From Streptacidiphilus anmyonensis (GTDB lineage Bacteria; Actinomycetota; Actinomycetes; Streptomycetales; Streptomycetaceae), in assembly GCF_000787855.1 (NCBI RefSeq), contig NZ_BBPQ01000004.1, forward strand, positions 155,471 to 219,470: 64,000 nucleotides of DNA, written 5' to 3'. Position 1 is the stretch's first letter, and the number at the start of each line of letters is the position of its first letter. Made by a program: the position numbers and the translations under genes. This document shows positions 31,746 through 61,851 of the stretch, one piece after another. The notes beneath the pieces were generated by a model. That model was not told the DNA's origin, ran no database searches, and saw only the letters and a list, made by a program, of their open reading frames with translations.

Positions 31746-32498
31746 GTGATCGACGTCGAGGAACGCTGGGCCCAGCTGGCCGCGAGCGGGGACACCGTCC
31801 TGCTGGAGGGTTTCCACGCGCTCAAGCACGCGCTGCGCTTCGGGGCGGTGGTGCCGCTGGCGGTGACCTCCGACCCGGCGGGGCTGGCGCGCCTGGCCGC
31901 TGACCTCGCCCCCGACCTCGCTCCAGACCTCGCCCCTGACCTGGGCGGCGTCGATGCCGTCCCCGTGACGGGCGAGGTGCTGCGCCGCCTCGTCCCCCGG
32001 CCCCACCCGACGGGCGTGGCCGCCCTGGCGTTTCGTCCACAGCCTGTGGACAACGCGACGCGGACCAGCCCGTTCGTGGTCCTGGAGAACCCGCGCAACC
32101 TGGGCAACATCGGCGCGGTCGTCCGCCTCGCGGCCGGCTTCGGTGCGGCGGGCGTGCTGACGACGGGCGACGTCGACCCCTGGCACCCCACGGCGGTCCG
32201 CGGCGCGGCCGGCCTCCACTTCGCCACCTCGGTGGCGCGCACCTCCCTGGACGCCCTGCCCTCCGGGCCGGTCTTCGCGCTGGACCCGGAGGGCGAATCC
32301 ATCCACGACGTCACCTTCCCGGATGACGCTCTGCTCGTTTTCGGCTCGGAGCGCCACGGGGTGACGGATGATGTGAAAGGGATGGCCACCTCTACTGTGG
32401 CCATCCCTATGCGTCCTCAGGTGTCCAGCTTCAACCTCGCCACCTCGGTCGGCATGGCGCTGTTCCACTGGCAGGGGCGTTCTTCAGCAGGTCAGTAG
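31746..32498 (+). CDS. TrmH/SpoU-family RNA 2'-O-methyltransferase
   Basis: 250 residues from GTG 31746, with GAGGA 3-7 bases upstream. The SPOUT trefoil-knot motifs are clear: motif 1 VLENPRNLGNIGAVVRLAAGFGAAGVL, motif 2 LLVFGSERHGV, motif 3 MRPQVSSFNLATSVGMALFHW. It methylates rRNA or tRNA from S-adenosylmethionine; the target is unknown. A short internal repeat (DLAPDLAPDLAPDL, ~60-73) comes from tandem 12-base units at about 31910-31940. Its last 7 bases overlap the end of the convergent Bro-N gene, with no terminator between. Confidence 0.93.
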   Translation: MIDVEERWAQLAASGDTVLLEGFHALKHALRFGAVVPLAVTSDPAGLARLAADLAPDLAPDLAPDLGGVDAVPVTGEVLRRLVPRPHPTGVAALAFRPQPVDNATRTSPFVVLENPRNLGNIGAVVRLAAGFGAAGVLTTGDVDPWHPTAVRGAAGLHFATSVARTSLDALPSGPVFALDPEGESIHDVTFPDDALLVFGSERHGVTDDVKGMATSTVAIPMRPQVSSFNLATSVGMALFHWQGRSSAGQ

Positions 32499-33304
32499 GC
32501 GGGAGCGGCCATCCCCAGCCTGTGGAGAACCTCGGCGATGTGCGCGGGCCTGCCGCGCAGCTCGGCCGAGCCGAGGCTGACGGTGATGTCGGCCTCCGGC
32601 AGCGGCGGGTGCGAGCGATGCAGCAGGTGCCGCACCACGGAGGCGAACAGCAGCCGCTGACAGGGCCGATGGCCCTTGTGCCGACGGATTCCGACGCGCT
32701 CGACCTCCGAACAGAGGAGGTAGGGGCCGAAGGGCGGTTCGAGCTCGTCCTTCGTGACGGGGGCGATGAGCCGCATCTGCCCGTGCGGGCAGTGGATCGA
32801 TCCGTCGCCTAGAACCTCGAAGGGCTGATCGTCGATGTCCAGGCGGCGGTCGCCGATCACGGGTTGGTCGAGATCCAGTGCTTCGGCGAAGGTCTTGGCC
32901 ATGCGCTCGCGCGCGGCGCCGAGGTCGGCGTCGCCACGGCGGATGGAGGGCAGGAGCTCGCGGGTGACCCAGTCCTGGAAGGGACGGGCCGTGGGCTTCC
33001 GGGACCGCATGATGAGGGTGTAGAGCCCGCTCTCGTTGGTCGCGGTCACCCGGGGGTTTCCGGCGGTGTACCCACGCTGAGCAGTGGTTTCTCGATTTCC
33101 GTCAGTTGAACTGACGGAACTCTCCCGGAGGTCGACGGTAAGGCGCTGGTCCGGGGCCAGTGCCGTCGCGGCCATGCGGGAGTTGCCGATCCCGAGGATC
33201 CGGCAGATGTCCGGCACGGCGAACCACGGCTCGCCGTCGATGATCACGACGCGGATGGGCTGTCCCGTCGTCGGGAACTCGGTGTGGATCAGGCGGGTGG
33301 CCAT
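32492..33304 (-). CDS. Bro-N domain protein with CPHG-Cys-Cys C-terminal domain (paralogue 1)
   Basis: 270 residues. Residues ~7-120 match the Bro-N/phage antirepressor N-terminal domain: GQPIRVVIIDGEPWFAVPDICRILG, then NESGLYTLIMRSRKPTARPFQDWVTRELLPSIRR. After a helical linker, a C-terminal region has HCPHGQM (172-175 = CPHG), Cys198 and Cys215. The neighbouring paralogue has the same residues at identical spacing (CPHG-x22-C-x16-C), a likely zinc site. Bro-N proteins are usually viral or prophage DNA-binding antirepressors, but no phage genes are present here. It follows paralogue 2 by 3 bases and probably ends a DUF5819-HTTM-BroN-BroN run. Function is unknown. Confidence 0.9.
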   Translation of the reverse strand: MATRLIHTEFPTTGQPIRVVIIDGEPWFAVPDICRILGIGNSRMAATALAPDQRLTVDLRESSVSSTDGNRETTAQRGYTAGNPRVTATNESGLYTLIMRSRKPTARPFQDWVTRELLPSIRRGDADLGAARERMAKTFAEALDLDQPVIGDRRLDIDDQPFEVLGDGSIHCPHGQMRLIAPVTKDELEPPFGPYLLCSEVERVGIRRHKGHRPCQRLLFASVVRHLLHRSHPPLPEADITVSLGSAELRGRPAHIAEVLHRLGMAAPAY

Positions 33305-33307
33305 GGT

Positions 33308-34072
33308 CTAGCGGACTCCGTTCAGGACGGTGAGGACGTCGGTCGGGGTGCCGGCGATGAGCAGGACCGAGCCGGGTGGCGCAGCCGGCCGGCGGTGGCA
33401 GGCGCGGGCGAGGTCGGTGAGGCGGACCGGCGGGCAGAGGCGGCGGGCCCTGCTGCCGAGGAGCCTGACGCGCTCGGTGCGGGTGCAGCGGAAGTGCGGT
33501 CCGTAGGGCGGGCCGTCGTCCTCGTCAGGGGCGGGGAACACCGGGTCCATCGCTCCGTGCGGGCAGTGGACGAAGCCGTCGGAGTAGAGCTGGAACGACT
33601 GCCCCAGCAGCTCGAACGCGCTGACGGGCTCGGGGTCCGGGACGGTGCCGAAGTTGATCGCCTCGGCGAAGGTCTCGGCCGTGTGCTCGCGCGCGGCGCC
33701 GAGGTCGGTGTGGTCACGGCGGATGGAGGGGAGGAGTTCGCGCGTGACCCAGTCCTGGAAGGGGCGGGCGGTGGGCTGGTCGGAGCGCACGATCAGCCGG
33801 TAGAGGCCGCTCTCGCTGACGACCTCGAGGTCGGGGTTTCCGCGTGAGAACCCACGCTGACCTGCGGCTTCGTGAACACCCTCCTGCGGAGTGCGGGTAT
33901 TCACGACACGGACCTCGTCCTCGCCGAGGAACTTGACGGCCTGGCCGGGTTGGGTCCTGCCGAGGATCCGGCAGACGTCGGCGACGGCGAACCACGGCTC
34001 GTCGTCGGTCAGGATGACGCGGATGGGTTGCCCCGTGGTGGGGAACTCCGCGTGAAGCATTCGCGTGTGCAT
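33308..34072 (-). CDS. Bro-N domain protein with CPHG-Cys-Cys C-terminal domain (paralogue 2)
   Basis: 254 residues. It is a tandem paralogue of the next gene, sharing EFPTTGQPIRV at the start, EPWFAV.D(V/I)CRILG, ESGLY.LI.RS..PTARPFQDWVTRELLPSIRR, DLGAARE...TFAEA and the C-terminal CPHG (170-173), Cys196 and Cys213 pattern. The middle of Bro-N (residues ~40-75) and the far C-terminus have diverged, so the two may read different targets. A GAAAGGG ribosome site precedes ATG 34072. It starts 46 bases after the HTTM gene on the same strand. Bro-N is DNA-binding by family; the role here is unknown. Confidence 0.9.
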   Translation of the reverse strand: MHTRMLHAEFPTTGQPIRVILTDDEPWFAVADVCRILGRTQPGQAVKFLGEDEVRVVNTRTPQEGVHEAAGQRGFSRGNPDLEVVSESGLYRLIVRSDQPTARPFQDWVTRELLPSIRRDHTDLGAAREHTAETFAEAINFGTVPDPEPVSAFELLGQSFQLYSDGFVHCPHGAMDPVFPAPDEDDGPPYGPHFRCTRTERVRLLGSRARRLCPPVRLTDLARACHRRPAAPPGSVLLIAGTPTDVLTVLNGVR

Positions 34073-34118
34073 GACGCGCCCTTTCGGGTGGGTGCTGGAG
34101 CGCCCTGCACAACGCGGG

Positions 34119-35357
34119 TTATCGGATGACCGACACGGCCTCCTGCTCGCGCTCGGTGGCGCGGGGGGCGCGCATGATCGTCTGGCGCAAGACTGGCGTG
34201 GCGACGACGCGCGCCACCCCCTTAGCCACCCCCTGGCCGGTCAGCCTGAGGAAGCCGGTGGGGAGGAAGACCGCGTCTGCAGTGATCATCGCGAGGGAGA
34301 AGAAGGGGAGCCCGAGGACGACCGCGATGGCCAGGTGCTCGGTCATCATCAGCGCCAGCATCACGTTCTTGATCCGCCGGTTGAAGACCAGGAACGGGAA
34401 GCCCACCTGGGCGATCACCGTGCCGTACGTGATGACGGTGACCAGCGTGCTGTTGTTGCCGAGCATGCTGTTGAGCGCCGGCCACGGCTCGAAGTAGTGC
34501 AGGTGGAGCGGGAACCAGAGGGCGGTGCCGCCCTGCCACAGCGAGCCCTGGATCTTGTACCAGCCGGCGGTGGCGTAGATGAAGCAGACCTCTGCGGCGA
34601 TCACCAGCATCGCGGCGTTGTGGAGCAGTGCGCCGAGCGCGTCCAGCAGTGCCGAGCCCTCGCTCTCCGGCGCGCGGCGGGCCAGTGCGCCGCGCAGGCC
34701 GGCCAGCAGCCAGCAGAGCCAGAAGAAGGTGCCCCAGGTGTAGACGCCGAGGTCCAGCATGCCGAGCTTCGCGAAGCCGGAGAGCTGACAGAACGCCAGG
34801 GCCAGGCCCAGCAGCAGCCACACCGCGACCCCCACCGGATCCCGCTCGTCGCGGGTGCCGCGCCGCGCGGCGCGCGCGTCCAGGGACCAGACCTCGCCGC
34901 ACCGGGTGAAGACCAGGTAGATCGCCATCAGGTGGACGACGTTGTCCCCGCCGTCGCCGACCAGGACCGCGCGGTTCTGCAGCGACAGCACCAGGACCAT
35001 GAAGACCAGCGAGGTCGCCCGGGTGCGCCACCCCAGCAGCATCAGCACGCTGACGGCGATCGCCGCCACGTAGACGCACTCGAACCACCAGCCCGCGTCC
35101 GACCAGGCCAGGACGGAGAAGGCGTGGTTCGCCGAGAGCATCTGCCGCGACAGGTCCGCGCTCCACGGCGAGAGGTCGCCGTACAGGACGCGTCGGTTCG
35201 GCCACTCGCGCAGCAGGAACGCGCCGAAGGTCAGCGCGACGCCGATGCGGACGATCGCGGCCTGGTAGCGCGCGAGGGTGCTGCCGGTGACGGTGGTCCA
35301 GGCCCGGAACGCGGCGTCGCCGGCACGCCTGCGGCCGTGGGTCAGCAGGGCGTGCAT
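34119..35357 (-). CDS. HTTM-domain membrane protein (vitamin K-dependent gamma-carboxylase-like)
   Basis: 412 residues from ATG 35357, whose A of ATG coincides with the last base of the DUF5819 stop (TGATG). Multiple helices are seen: ARYQAAIVRIGVALTFGAFLL, WWFECVYVAAIAVSVLMLLGW, VAVWLLLGLALAFCQLSGFAKL, NAAMLVIAAEVCFIYATAGWYKIQGSLWQGGTALWFPLHL, and later VMLALMMTEHLAIAVVLGLPFFSLAMI. The AGWYKIQGSLWQGGTALWF...HL segment is characteristic of HTTM proteins, the bacterial relatives of vitamin K-dependent carboxylase. Most bacterial members lack the carboxylase lysines and have no known activity. It is coupled to DUF5819 and may form a complex with it. Confidence 0.9.
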   Translation of the reverse strand: MHALLTHGRRRAGDAAFRAWTTVTGSTLARYQAAIVRIGVALTFGAFLLREWPNRRVLYGDLSPWSADLSRQMLSANHAFSVLAWSDAGWWFECVYVAAIAVSVLMLLGWRTRATSLVFMVLVLSLQNRAVLVGDGGDNVVHLMAIYLVFTRCGEVWSLDARAARRGTRDERDPVGVAVWLLLGLALAFCQLSGFAKLGMLDLGVYTWGTFFWLCWLLAGLRGALARRAPESEGSALLDALGALLHNAAMLVIAAEVCFIYATAGWYKIQGSLWQGGTALWFPLHLHYFEPWPALNSMLGNNSTLVTVITYGTVIAQVGFPFLVFNRRIKNVMLALMMTEHLAIAVVLGLPFFSLAMITADAVFLPTGFLRLTGQGVAKGVARVVATPVLRQTIMRAPRATEREQEAVSVIR

Positions 35358-36175
35358 CAGGAGGCCCCCAGGCCGCGGTAGTCGTCGTCGGTGGCGGGCC
35401 ACCAGGGCAGCTGACGGTAGGACGGGGTGGCGGTGGCGGGCGCACCGGTCCAGGTGGGGCCGGTGACGTCGGTGGTGGCGGAGCGGAACTGGATCTGGAT
35501 GACCGGCTCCCCGCGCCAGTCCCGGCCGATCCGCTGCAGCCCGATGCGCTTGAGGTACTCGACCGAGAGCGGACCCCCGAAGCCGGTGGACTTCTCGTTC
35601 TGGTCGTGCCAGGCGGTGTAGTAGTCCCAGGCGCGGCGCAGCAGGTTCTGGTTGACGTGGCTGGGGAACGCGTTGCCGCGGATCGCGGCCACGTCCTGGG
35701 CGGTCAGGTCGATCCACGGCGACTCGGTGCGGCCGCCGTCGGCGGCGAGGGTCTGCACGCGCGCCTGGACCGCGATGTTCTGCTGCAGCGGGTTGGGCGC
35801 GAACAGTTGCCAGTTCTGCTCGAACTCGGGCATCACGTGCGCGTTGATGGTGGTGGCGTTGCGCTGCGAGACCGGGTTGCTCGGCGCGATGGAGAGGAAG
35901 ACGGTGCCGAGGTGGTAGACCACGGCGAGTGCGACGGCGACCACGGCGGCGTAGAGGACCAGCAGGGAGGGCAGCGACCAGCGGCGTCCCTGCGCGGGAT
36001 CGGGCCGGTCGGCACCGCTGTCTTCAGCGCCGTTGTCCTCGGTGCCGCTCTCCGCAGGATCGTTCTCCGCAGCATCGTTCTCCGCGGCGCCGCTCTCCGC
36101 GGTCGTGTCCTCCGGCGCGGTTCGGGGCGCGGGTATGGGTTCGTGCGTGGTTGCGCCGTCCGGCTCGTCTGCCAC
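35357..36175 (-). CDS. DUF5819-family single-pass membrane protein
   Basis: 272 residues from GTG 36175. The cytoplasmic N-terminus is acidic and repetitive (ESGAAENDAAENDPAESGTEDNGAEDSGAD, ~28-57). One helix follows (LPSLLVLYAAVVAVALAVVYHLGTVFLSI, ~69-97). The extracellular part has the DUF5819 hallmark QNWQLFAPNPLQQNIAVQARV and later NAFPSHVNQNLLRRAWDYYTAWHDQ. Such proteins commonly pair with HTTM genes in actinobacteria, and here the stop/start share one base. The function is unknown. The gene is divergent from the acyl-CoA dehydrogenase; the KstR-like and CTGACG boxes lie nearer the latter. Confidence 0.88.
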   Translation of the reverse strand: MADEPDGATTHEPIPAPRTAPEDTTAESGAAENDAAENDPAESGTEDNGAEDSGADRPDPAQGRRWSLPSLLVLYAAVVAVALAVVYHLGTVFLSIAPSNPVSQRNATTINAHVMPEFEQNWQLFAPNPLQQNIAVQARVQTLAADGGRTESPWIDLTAQDVAAIRGNAFPSHVNQNLLRRAWDYYTAWHDQNEKSTGFGGPLSVEYLKRIGLQRIGRDWRGEPVIQIQFRSATTDVTGPTWTGAPATATPSYRQLPWWPATDDDYRGLGAS

Positions 36176-59381: not shown

Positions 59382-60827
59382 ATGACTGCCGACCCCGCCA
59401 CCGCTGCCGCCGACGCCTCGACCTCCACCGGCCCCACCGCCGCTCCGGCGCGGCGCGAGCCGCCGGGCGGCAGGGGGGCCTGGCTGGCGTGGGGCATCGG
59501 CGTCACGGTCTACGTCCTCGCCGTCGTCCACCGCACCAGCCTCGGCGTCGCCGGGGTCGACGCGGCGGCCCGGTTCGGGATCAACGCCTCGGCGCTGTCG
59601 ACCTTCTCCATCCTTCAGGTCCTGGTCTACGCCGGCATGCAGATACCCGTCGGCCTCCTTGTCGACCGCCACGGCCCGCGCCGGATCCTCAGCGCGGGCC
59701 TCGTGCTGCTCACCGCCGGGCAGCTCGGCTTCGCGCTGGCGACCTCCTTCACCCCCGCGCTGCTCGCGCGCGGCGTGCTGGGCTGCGGCGACGCGATGAC
59801 CTTCGTCAGCGTGCTGCGGATCGGCTCGCGCTGGTTCCCGCTGTTCCGCAACCCGTTCATCGCCCAGCTGACCGGTCTGGTCGGCACGGTCGGCAACCTG
59901 GTCTCGACGCTGGTGCTCTCCCAGGTCCTGCACAGCGCCGGCTGGACGGCGACCTTCGGCACCACCGCGCTGCTGGGCTTCGGCGTGCTGGCGCTGGTGG
60001 TGCTGGTCCTGCGGGAGACGCCGGACAGCGCGCCGCGCGAGCCGCTGTTCGTGCGCCGGAGCGCACGCGTCCCCGACGCCCCCCGGCCGGTAGCACCCCT
60101 GCCGCCCGTACCGTCCGTACCGGGTTTCTCGCTCCGCGACCAGATCCACGCGTCCTGGCGCGAGCCCGGCACCCGGCTCGGCATGTGGGTCCACTTCACC
60201 ACGGCGTTCCCGGCGTCCAGCTTCCTGCTGCTGTGGGGCATGCCCTTCCTGATGACCGGCCAGCACCTCTCGCGCGCCCTCTCCGGTGCGCTGCTCAGCC
60301 TGGTCATCGTCGCGGGCATGGGCTTCGCGGTCCTCTTCGGCCAGCTGATGTCGCGCCGGCCCGGCTGGCGGACCCCCACGGTCTTCGCGGTCGTCCTCAC
60401 CACCGGCGCGGCCTGGGCCGCGGTCCTGGCCTGGCCGCAGCCGGGCCACGTCCCGATGTGGCTGCTGATCGTCCTCGCGGTGGTGATGGGCAGCAACGGC
60501 CCCGCGTCCCTCATCGGCCTCGACTACGCCCGCCCGGTGAACCCCCCGGAGCGGGTCGGCACGGCCTCCGGCATCGTCAACATGGGCGGCTTCATCGCCG
60601 CGGTCCTGGCGCTCTTCCTGATCGGCCTCGTCCTGGACCTCGACACCCCGGGCGGCGGCACGGACTACACGGCGAACGGCTTCCGCGCGGCGTTCGCGAT
60701 GCTGTACCTGCCGATGGCCCTGGGCATCCTCCAGATCCTCCGCCTCCGCAAGCGCGCCCTCGCCCGCGAACGCGAACTCATCGCGGCGGCGGTCCCTGTC
60801 GCGCGTGGGGAGCTTGCCGCTCCCTAG
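59382..60827 (+). CDS. MFS transporter
   Basis: 481 residues from ATG 59382, with AGGATG upstream. About 12 helices start with WLAWGIGVTVYVLAVVHRTSLGVAGVDAAARFGINASALSTFSILQVLVYAGMQIPVGLLVDRHGPRRIL, which contains motif A (GLLVDRHGPRR). ERVGTASGIVNMGGFIAAVLALFLIGLVLDL is typical of the second half. The Thr/Ala/Pro-rich N-terminal tail (~1-30) is cytoplasmic. The substrate is unknown. It ends at a repeat-type hairpin facing a minus-strand gene. Confidence 0.93.
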   Translation: MTADPATAAADASTSTGPTAAPARREPPGGRGAWLAWGIGVTVYVLAVVHRTSLGVAGVDAAARFGINASALSTFSILQVLVYAGMQIPVGLLVDRHGPRRILSAGLVLLTAGQLGFALATSFTPALLARGVLGCGDAMTFVSVLRIGSRWFPLFRNPFIAQLTGLVGTVGNLVSTLVLSQVLHSAGWTATFGTTALLGFGVLALVVLVLRETPDSAPREPLFVRRSARVPDAPRPVAPLPPVPSVPGFSLRDQIHASWREPGTRLGMWVHFTTAFPASSFLLLWGMPFLMTGQHLSRALSGALLSLVIVAGMGFAVLFGQLMSRRPGWRTPTVFAVVLTTGAAWAAVLAWPQPGHVPMWLLIVLAVVMGSNGPASLIGLDYARPVNPPERVGTASGIVNMGGFIAAVLALFLIGLVLDLDTPGGGTDYTANGFRAAFAMLYLPMALGILQILRLRKRALARERELIAAAVPVARGELAAP

Positions 60828-60905: not shown

Positions 60906-61733
60906 TCAGGGCGTGACGGCGAAGTTGTCCAGGATGAGGCGGGCGAGGTCCTCGTCGCCCTCCACCTTGACGTCCGCCGCCTGGGACGGGATGCGGCCGC
61001 AGGCGAGGCGGGAGAAGGTCTCCCAGTCCATGCCGAGGGCCACCGCCGGGGCGAGCAGGACCTCGCCGTCGACACGGCCGCGGCCGTCCGCGTCGACGTG
61101 GACGGTGCGCATGAACTCCTGCTCGCCGTGGACGTCGAAGACGGCCGTCGTGCCGGCCGGAGCGCCGGCCAGCTTGGCGACGGCGCGGGGCAGCATCTCG
61201 ATCAGGTAGTCGCGGGTGATGGCGGCCGCCGCCGAGTCCAGACCGCCCGCCCGGCCGAGGGCCCTGCGGATGTCCTGCTCGTGGGTCCACACGTCGAAGA
61301 CGCGCGTGCGCAGCAGCTGGTGGAAGGGGACGTCGCGGCTGTAGGGGCCCATCGGCCAGCGGACCTCGTCCACCGGCGCGTAGCGGTCGCTCCGCAGCGC
61401 GCGGGAGCGGCGGATGATGGTGTACTCCAGCTCGGAGGCCATCTCCACCGCGGTGTGGCAGCGGCGTTTGTCGACCGGCACCTCGCAGTGGCGGCTGAAC
61501 TCGTCCACGACGTGCCGCAGATCGCGTGGCAGCGTGTGGATCGGGCGTGGGTCGCCCAGCAGTTCGGACTCCATGGCGATGATGTGCGAGACGACGTCCC
61601 GCACGGACCACCCCGGGCATTCGGTCGGCCGGTTCCACGCGCCCTCGGGGAGTGGGGCGACCAGCTCGGATATGGCCTCGATGGACTGGGTCCAGGCATC
61701 GGCGTACGCCTGGACGGTCTGCTTGTCGGTCAC
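60906..61733 (-). CDS. maleylpyruvate-isomerase-family (MDMPI/DinB-like) protein
   Basis: 275 residues from GTG 61733, which has GAGGGG 8 bases upstream; a GTG six bases earlier (61739) is the alternative. The N-terminal DinB/MDMPI helical bundle includes WNRPTECPGWSVRDVVSHIIAMESELLG (His in the metal-binding position), FHQLLRTRVFDVWTHEQDIRRALGR (His-containing HEQD) and an SCP2-like C-terminal segment from ~185. Family members use mycothiol in isomerase or transferase reactions. It is divergent from the nitrilase gene. Confidence 0.9.
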   Translation of the reverse strand: MTDKQTVQAYADAWTQSIEAISELVAPLPEGAWNRPTECPGWSVRDVVSHIIAMESELLGDPRPIHTLPRDLRHVVDEFSRHCEVPVDKRRCHTAVEMASELEYTIIRRSRALRSDRYAPVDEVRWPMGPYSRDVPFHQLLRTRVFDVWTHEQDIRRALGRAGGLDSAAAAITRDYLIEMLPRAVAKLAGAPAGTTAVFDVHGEQEFMRTVHVDADGRGRVDGEVLLAPAVALGMDWETFSRLACGRIPSQAADVKVEGDEDLARLILDNFAVTP

Positions 61734-61851
61734 GTTCACGACCCCTCAGGCGGAGCAGCCAACTTCGCTATCGGCACGTTACGCTGCCTGGTGTCCCCAG
61801 GCAGCGCTTTCCGGTGTTGATCGTAGGGCTCTTGACGAAACGGGTGGTACC

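Follow-up and report, generated by a model that had tools for sequence, protein, structure and literature searches.

A tandem pair of Bro-N genes in a core chromosomal setting

The window, by which we mean the whole 64,000-nucleotide stretch analysed, belongs to the 9.39-Mb genome of a soil-dwelling Streptacidiphilus (G000) and carries on its minus strand two genes set end to end with a 3-base spacer between them, BroN-A (33308..34072; 254 aa) and BroN-B (32492..33304; 270 aa). Both encode a Bro-N domain followed by a C-terminal module marked by a C-x-H-G...C...C motif. The Bro-N domain (Pfam PF02498) is encoded at 33728..34024 on the minus strand in BroN-A (residues 17-115; E = 4.4e-20) and at 32948..33256, likewise minus, in BroN-B (E = 6.6e-21), and the profile scores of the pair, 75.2 and 72.5 bits, lie above the curated cut-off of 25.6. 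The proteins are paralogues: they align over 239 aa at 46% identity (E = 8e-71), and their C-terminal motifs fall in register.

Upstream of BroN-A on the same strand lies a gene for an HTTM protein (34119-35357; PF05090, E = 7e-7), itself preceded by a DUF5819 gene (35357-36175, minus strand; PF19136, E = 2e-56); a sub-cutoff match to the SdpB family relates these two to the SdpA/SdpB type. Downstream, a convergent SpoU-type methyltransferase gene (31746-32498) and BroN-B overlap at their ends by 7 bases. The remaining neighbours are metabolic (a CGNR regulator, a glyoxalase, an acyl-CoA dehydrogenase, MobA and MoeA), and a polyamine-type ABC transporter cluster, recognised by sequence alone, is also nearby. 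An earlier note on this DNA had described two adjacent Bro-N genes with no phage genes around them, and both statements are borne out: the two ORFs carry Pfam Bro-N matches and their neighbours are core metabolic genes. Simple consensus patterns, which are weak evidence in actinobacteria, found no sigma-70-type promoter or terminator near the pair.

A conserved C-terminal module

The C-terminal module is encoded at 33386..33607 in BroN-A, with conserved C170, H172, C196 and C213, and at 32612..32833 in BroN-B, with C172, H174, C198 and C215 (both minus strand). The motif reads C-x-H-G-x22-C-x16-C, its cysteines falling at positions 170/196/213 and 172/198/215, respectively. Across 30 intact homologues, C172, H174, G175, C198 and C215 (BroN-B numbering) are invariant in 30 of 30, as are D167, G168, P182, P190, P191 and G193. 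Adding a phage relative, described below, leaves D, G, C, H, G, P, C and C invariant, so that the four-ligand set of C172, H174, C198 and C215 is kept in all 30 homologues and in the phage protein. The earlier note had proposed an exactly spaced CPHG-x22-C-x16-C domain, to be abandoned should the cysteines vary among orthologues. The cysteines are invariant, and the spacing and the C, H, G, C and C residues stand; P173 does not, as the residue after the first cysteine varies among homologues, and the motif is accordingly C-x-H-G rather than CPHG.

An AF2 model of the module, of medium confidence (pLDDT 73.6, pTM 0.61), consists of two beta hairpins, a strand and a helix, with the C-x-H pair placed in the second hairpin. 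Because C, H, C and C are invariant on this predicted beta-rich module, a zinc site is plausible, and we consider that the module probably holds a structural one.

A profile search with the C-terminal part, which the earlier note had suggested, showed that the module is matched by no Pfam, NCBIfam or PHROG model. Searched with tblastn, GenBank phages gave no match to the exact module. Nearly all plasmid records matched over the Bro-N part only, while one Citrobacter BRO protein aligned over 95% at 29% identity. A class-wide search with the C-terminal profile found only the window's own copies convincing, four short weak matches being taken as chance. The PDB sequence search gave no match, and the best rows of a PDB fold search with the full model were DdrC, a granulovirus envelope protein domain and SKI, at E values of at least 0.04.

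Two core loci in Streptacidiphilus and Kitasatospora

Genes of this family, BroN, occur at the syntenic core locus in 12 of 13 other Streptacidiphilus genomes, G010 having none and G007 having a frameshifted copy. In a 298-genome sample of the bacterial family, near-full-profile matches are confined to the groups g1 (Streptacidiphilus), g11 (one genome, a contig of Streptacidiphilus sp. ASG 303) and g14 (Kitasatospora); the other genera of that sample match over the Bro-N part only. Most Kitasatospora copies lie at a second core locus, flanked by homologues of two genes of the window, 60906-61739 (mycothiol-dependent isomerase type) and 59382-60827 (MFS); in the window itself this place is empty. 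Both loci are occupied by an intact BroN in Kitasatospora sp. MAA4 and G218, and K. mediocidica has one intact and one damaged.

Two copies are present in five Streptacidiphilus genomes, that of the window among them. The pairs of G009 and G004 are intact, the B copy of G008 is frameshifted near its end and that of G006 is without its middle. The BroN-A/BroN-B pair is a lineage-specific duplication, and the "paired regulators" of the earlier note do not generalize: most genomes carry a single BroN, and a second one has frequently been lost or has suffered damage. In the tree, copies cluster by locus and host lineage, so that site-1 separates from site-2 in Kitasatospora and A from B in Streptacidiphilus. 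Its deepest forks fit one ancient duplication as well as they fit two captures. Damaged copies were seen in different species (L045, L046, L035, L073, L075 and L089), by frameshifts, internal deletion and truncations. With one genome lacking the gene and several copies damaged, BroN is evidently dispensable.

A hypervariable segment in the middle of Bro-N

The earlier note had remarked that the centre of Bro-N differs between the two proteins; this divergence is real, and entropy and the identities of close orthologues make it much stronger than the pair alone would show. The hypervariable segment comprises residues 39-85 of BroN-B (33050..33190, minus strand) and the aligned stretch of BroN-A (33830..33958, minus strand). 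Entropy reaches 1.3-2.1 bits in blocks of residues 41-90, as against 0.5-1.1 in the Bro-N flanks, and in many close orthologues the middles are 28-45% identical while the fixed parts are 77-90% identical (for example, 0.28 vs 0.87 for G013/G003 and 0.45 vs 0.90 for L065/L066). Evenly conserved exceptions exist, namely L051/G011, L053/L055 and the B copies of the window and G008. A 14-nt inverted repeat lies at window positions 33094-33122, inside the BroN-B coding sequence for the variable segment.

In the AF2 model of BroN, which is of medium confidence (pLDDT 74.7), helix-turn-helix-like helices occupy residues 30-37 and 42-47, followed by a strand at 54-58 and a low-confidence loop at 68-81; the variable segment spans the second of these helices, the strand and the loop.

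Over 11 close pairs, some of them related and with sites that are not independent, pN is 0.247 in the middle and 0.084 in the fixed parts (Fisher 4e-43), and pS is 0.373 and 0.254, respectively (Fisher 1e-5). For the fixed parts, the pN/pS of 0.33 over the 11 pairs points to purifying selection. Within the variable segment dN/dS is below 1 in every pair, which falls short of demonstrating positive selection, and the raised pS suggests either exchange of divergent segments or locally fast evolution. Tree incongruence was set aside as a proof that segments recombine: whichever short segment is taken, it rejects the tree of the remainder, most strongly so the middle (delta lnL 217), and incongruence therefore fits exchange and fast evolution alike.

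A second chromosomal Bro-N family, present in the same genomes, served as control. It is represented in G000 on contig C150, about 113 kb before the window (L187:3788-4627), and like BroN it is Streptacidiphilus-borne, with orthologues in at least five Streptacidiphilus genomes. It differs in having another, conserved C-terminal part without the cysteine motif and a middle about as conserved as its flanks (identities of 0.70-0.95 and 0.79-0.96, respectively). In the C-x-H-G family, the middle falls to 0.34-0.65 in five of six comparisons, with flanks at 0.70-0.93; between G008 and G002, the middle is 0.95 identical in the control and 0.34 identical in BroN-B. Since the middle of the control family is conserved, hypervariability is no general trait of chromosomal Bro-N genes.

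A proposed sequence-specific regulator and a possible antirepressor role

On balance, we think that BroN-A and BroN-B are members of a chromosomal family, found in Streptacidiphilus and Kitasatospora, that derives from a phage antirepressor-type protein and has been retained to regulate in a sequence-specific manner. In this reading, Bro-N would recognise DNA in the way of a helix-turn-helix, with specificity set by a variable element made up of the modelled second helix and the loop next to it, and the C-x-H-G...C...C module, with its probable zinc site, would serve as a constant effector or contact surface. The role would be regulatory, possibly in the control of mobile elements. We infer DNA binding, metal binding, phage-to-host descent and regulation alike from the comparisons given here. 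Of the possible ligands DNA is the most likely, since what changes is the modelled helix-turn-helix helix together with a wing-like loop. Conflict with mobile elements would be expected to leave such a pattern, in which copies are frequently lost or damaged while one surface changes fast, but the PADLOC anti-phage defence models gave no match at E up to 0.01.

The main rival to DNA as ligand is a protein target. BroN could be a true antirepressor that binds and inactivates the repressors of resident or incoming prophages or integrative elements, with a variable segment that tracks its protein partners rather than DNA, a reading that we hold to be possible if doubtful. The top PHROG matches are anti-repressors, and the Gifsy antirepressors, which release repressor from DNA by protein-protein binding and differ in target range (PMC3121763), offer a precedent, though one by analogy, since the Gifsy proteins are unrelated small proteins. 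Against this reading, the hypervariable part falls on the modelled helix-turn-helix helix and loop rather than on the tail, and neither locus has a linked partner gene.

A more specific form of the regulator reading, which we think unlikely, is that of a host-owned protein coupling a variable reader to a constant effector, whose DNA-reading helix and loop would be rewritten repeatedly, by segment exchange or diversifying selection, as they follow the changing operators of phages or mobile elements, so that the host would control these in a sequence-specific way.

Probable phage ancestry and residence in the host

When 2.9 million viral contigs were scanned with the C-terminal profile, one relative was confirmed, a 279-aa protein (L121:5524-6363) in the 49.7-kb contig IMGVR_UViG_2872980847_000001, which also encodes a terminase, a portal, a DnaB-like helicase, an exonuclease and a primase. 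This protein, which matches the full-length BroN profile at E = 6.5e-48, has the same two-domain layout, Bro-N and then the C-x-H-G...C...C module; it differs in its phage context, in a module just 24-37% identical, in a third-to-fourth ligand spacing 3-4 residues longer and in the absence of a matching leader. Other viral relatives match over Bro-N only. The presence of this two-domain protein in a phage contig makes it probable that the architecture arose in phages; with a single viral relative bearing the C-terminal module, we infer the direction of transfer, from phage to host, from where Bro-N occurs in general. The Bro-N antirepressors of phages (PF02498; PHROG 130, 2593 and 2899) likewise combine an N-terminal Bro-N domain with a separate C-terminal part at a similar size. 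Unlike them, BroN is core-chromosomal, carries a module that lacks PHROG, Pfam and NCBIfam matches, and changes very fast at residues 39-85.

In all genomes examined, BroN copies sit at core syntenic loci and not in prophage, the L121 relative alone lying in a phage contig. A prophage remnant in place is ruled out by synteny: the same core locus is occupied in 12 of 13 other Streptacidiphilus genomes and a second one in Kitasatospora. Where the earlier note would have given up domestication had homologues occurred only inside intact prophages, they occupy core chromosomal loci in two genera, and domestication is well supported by this syntenic inheritance, the non-prophage location and purifying selection on the fixed parts.

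That BroN is a decaying phage remnant, persisting by chance with no host function, strikes us as improbable. Such decay would fit the frameshifts, the internal deletion and the losses seen in several genomes, but most Streptacidiphilus and many Kitasatospora genomes have an intact gene with C, H, C and C invariant, its fixed parts show a pN/pS of 0.33, and neither locus has further phage genes.

The leader and the DUF5819-HTTM pair

The gap of 46 bases between HTTM and BroN-A contains a conserved 37-nt leader (34081..34117, minus strand), which aligns ungapped to the region upstream of the site-2 Kitasatospora BroN genes and is homologous to it despite the different locus. None of 500 shuffles reaches the alignment score for 6 of 17 site-2 leaders, and 1 of 500 does so for one more; several other site-2 leaders show no excess over shuffles. 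A leader core, CGTTGnnC[AC]GG[GA]C, lies 42-45 nt before most site-1 starts. As the leader is homologous at both loci, BroN appears to travel with its own expression signal. A search for a wider regulon with the leader motif found no excess in the window's genome (4 sites, as against 5 for a backwards-pattern control).

The earlier note had also tied the pair to DUF5819-HTTM. The membrane pair does exist upstream on the same strand; the neighbourhood survey does not support the functional link that this implied. It is quite unlikely that BroN is a working part, for instance the regulator, of an SdpA/SdpB-like membrane operon. BroN follows HTTM on the same strand by 46-58 bp in most Streptacidiphilus and in Streptacidiphilus sp. 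ASG 303, and follows it in a few Kitasatospora, so that co-transcription is possible. Yet DUF5819 is found in all 121 genomes sampled from the bacterial family and full-length BroN in a minority, most Kitasatospora copies lie at another locus, G003 and G013 retain BroN at a locus from which DUF5819-HTTM is gone, and the leader moves with BroN. Since DUF5819 is universal there and BroN is often elsewhere or absent, an obligate DUF5819-HTTM-BroN operon is ruled out and the link is positional. Among the same 121 genomes, DUF5819 is often present in two copies.

Comparison with GRF zinc fingers

That the C-terminal module is a divergent GRF-type zinc finger (PF06839; NEIL3, APE2), coupling Bro-N to single-stranded nucleic acid binding, seems a poor prospect: its C-x-H-G ... 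G-P-x-x-G ... F-x-C-P pattern resembles the C-x-H ... G-P-x-x-G ... F-x-C ... C of one finger, the second of NEIL3 (first-to-third ligand spacing of 26 against 25; mean pairwise z 3.2), and the medium-confidence model weakly matches 7jl5_B (VIA-align Z 2.2 over 43 residues), but none of 31 members matches PF06839, the profile comparison scores 9.0 against up to 15.4 for shuffled columns, and no resemblance is seen to two further GRF fingers (mean z 0.03 and 0.69).

Significance

Phages and large DNA viruses have Bro-N proteins in abundance, and what Bro-N reads is poorly defined. The host-resident family found here is real, of probable phage ancestry and with a putative function, and the literature searched contained no description of a C-x-H-G Bro-N family. 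With dozens of chromosomal orthologues, a phage protein built in the same way and naturally occurring replacements of a short segment, it offers a direct route to what Bro-N recognises. The family also lets one ask how a host comes to own a regulator of phages, and what lies behind the continual change of its reading surface.
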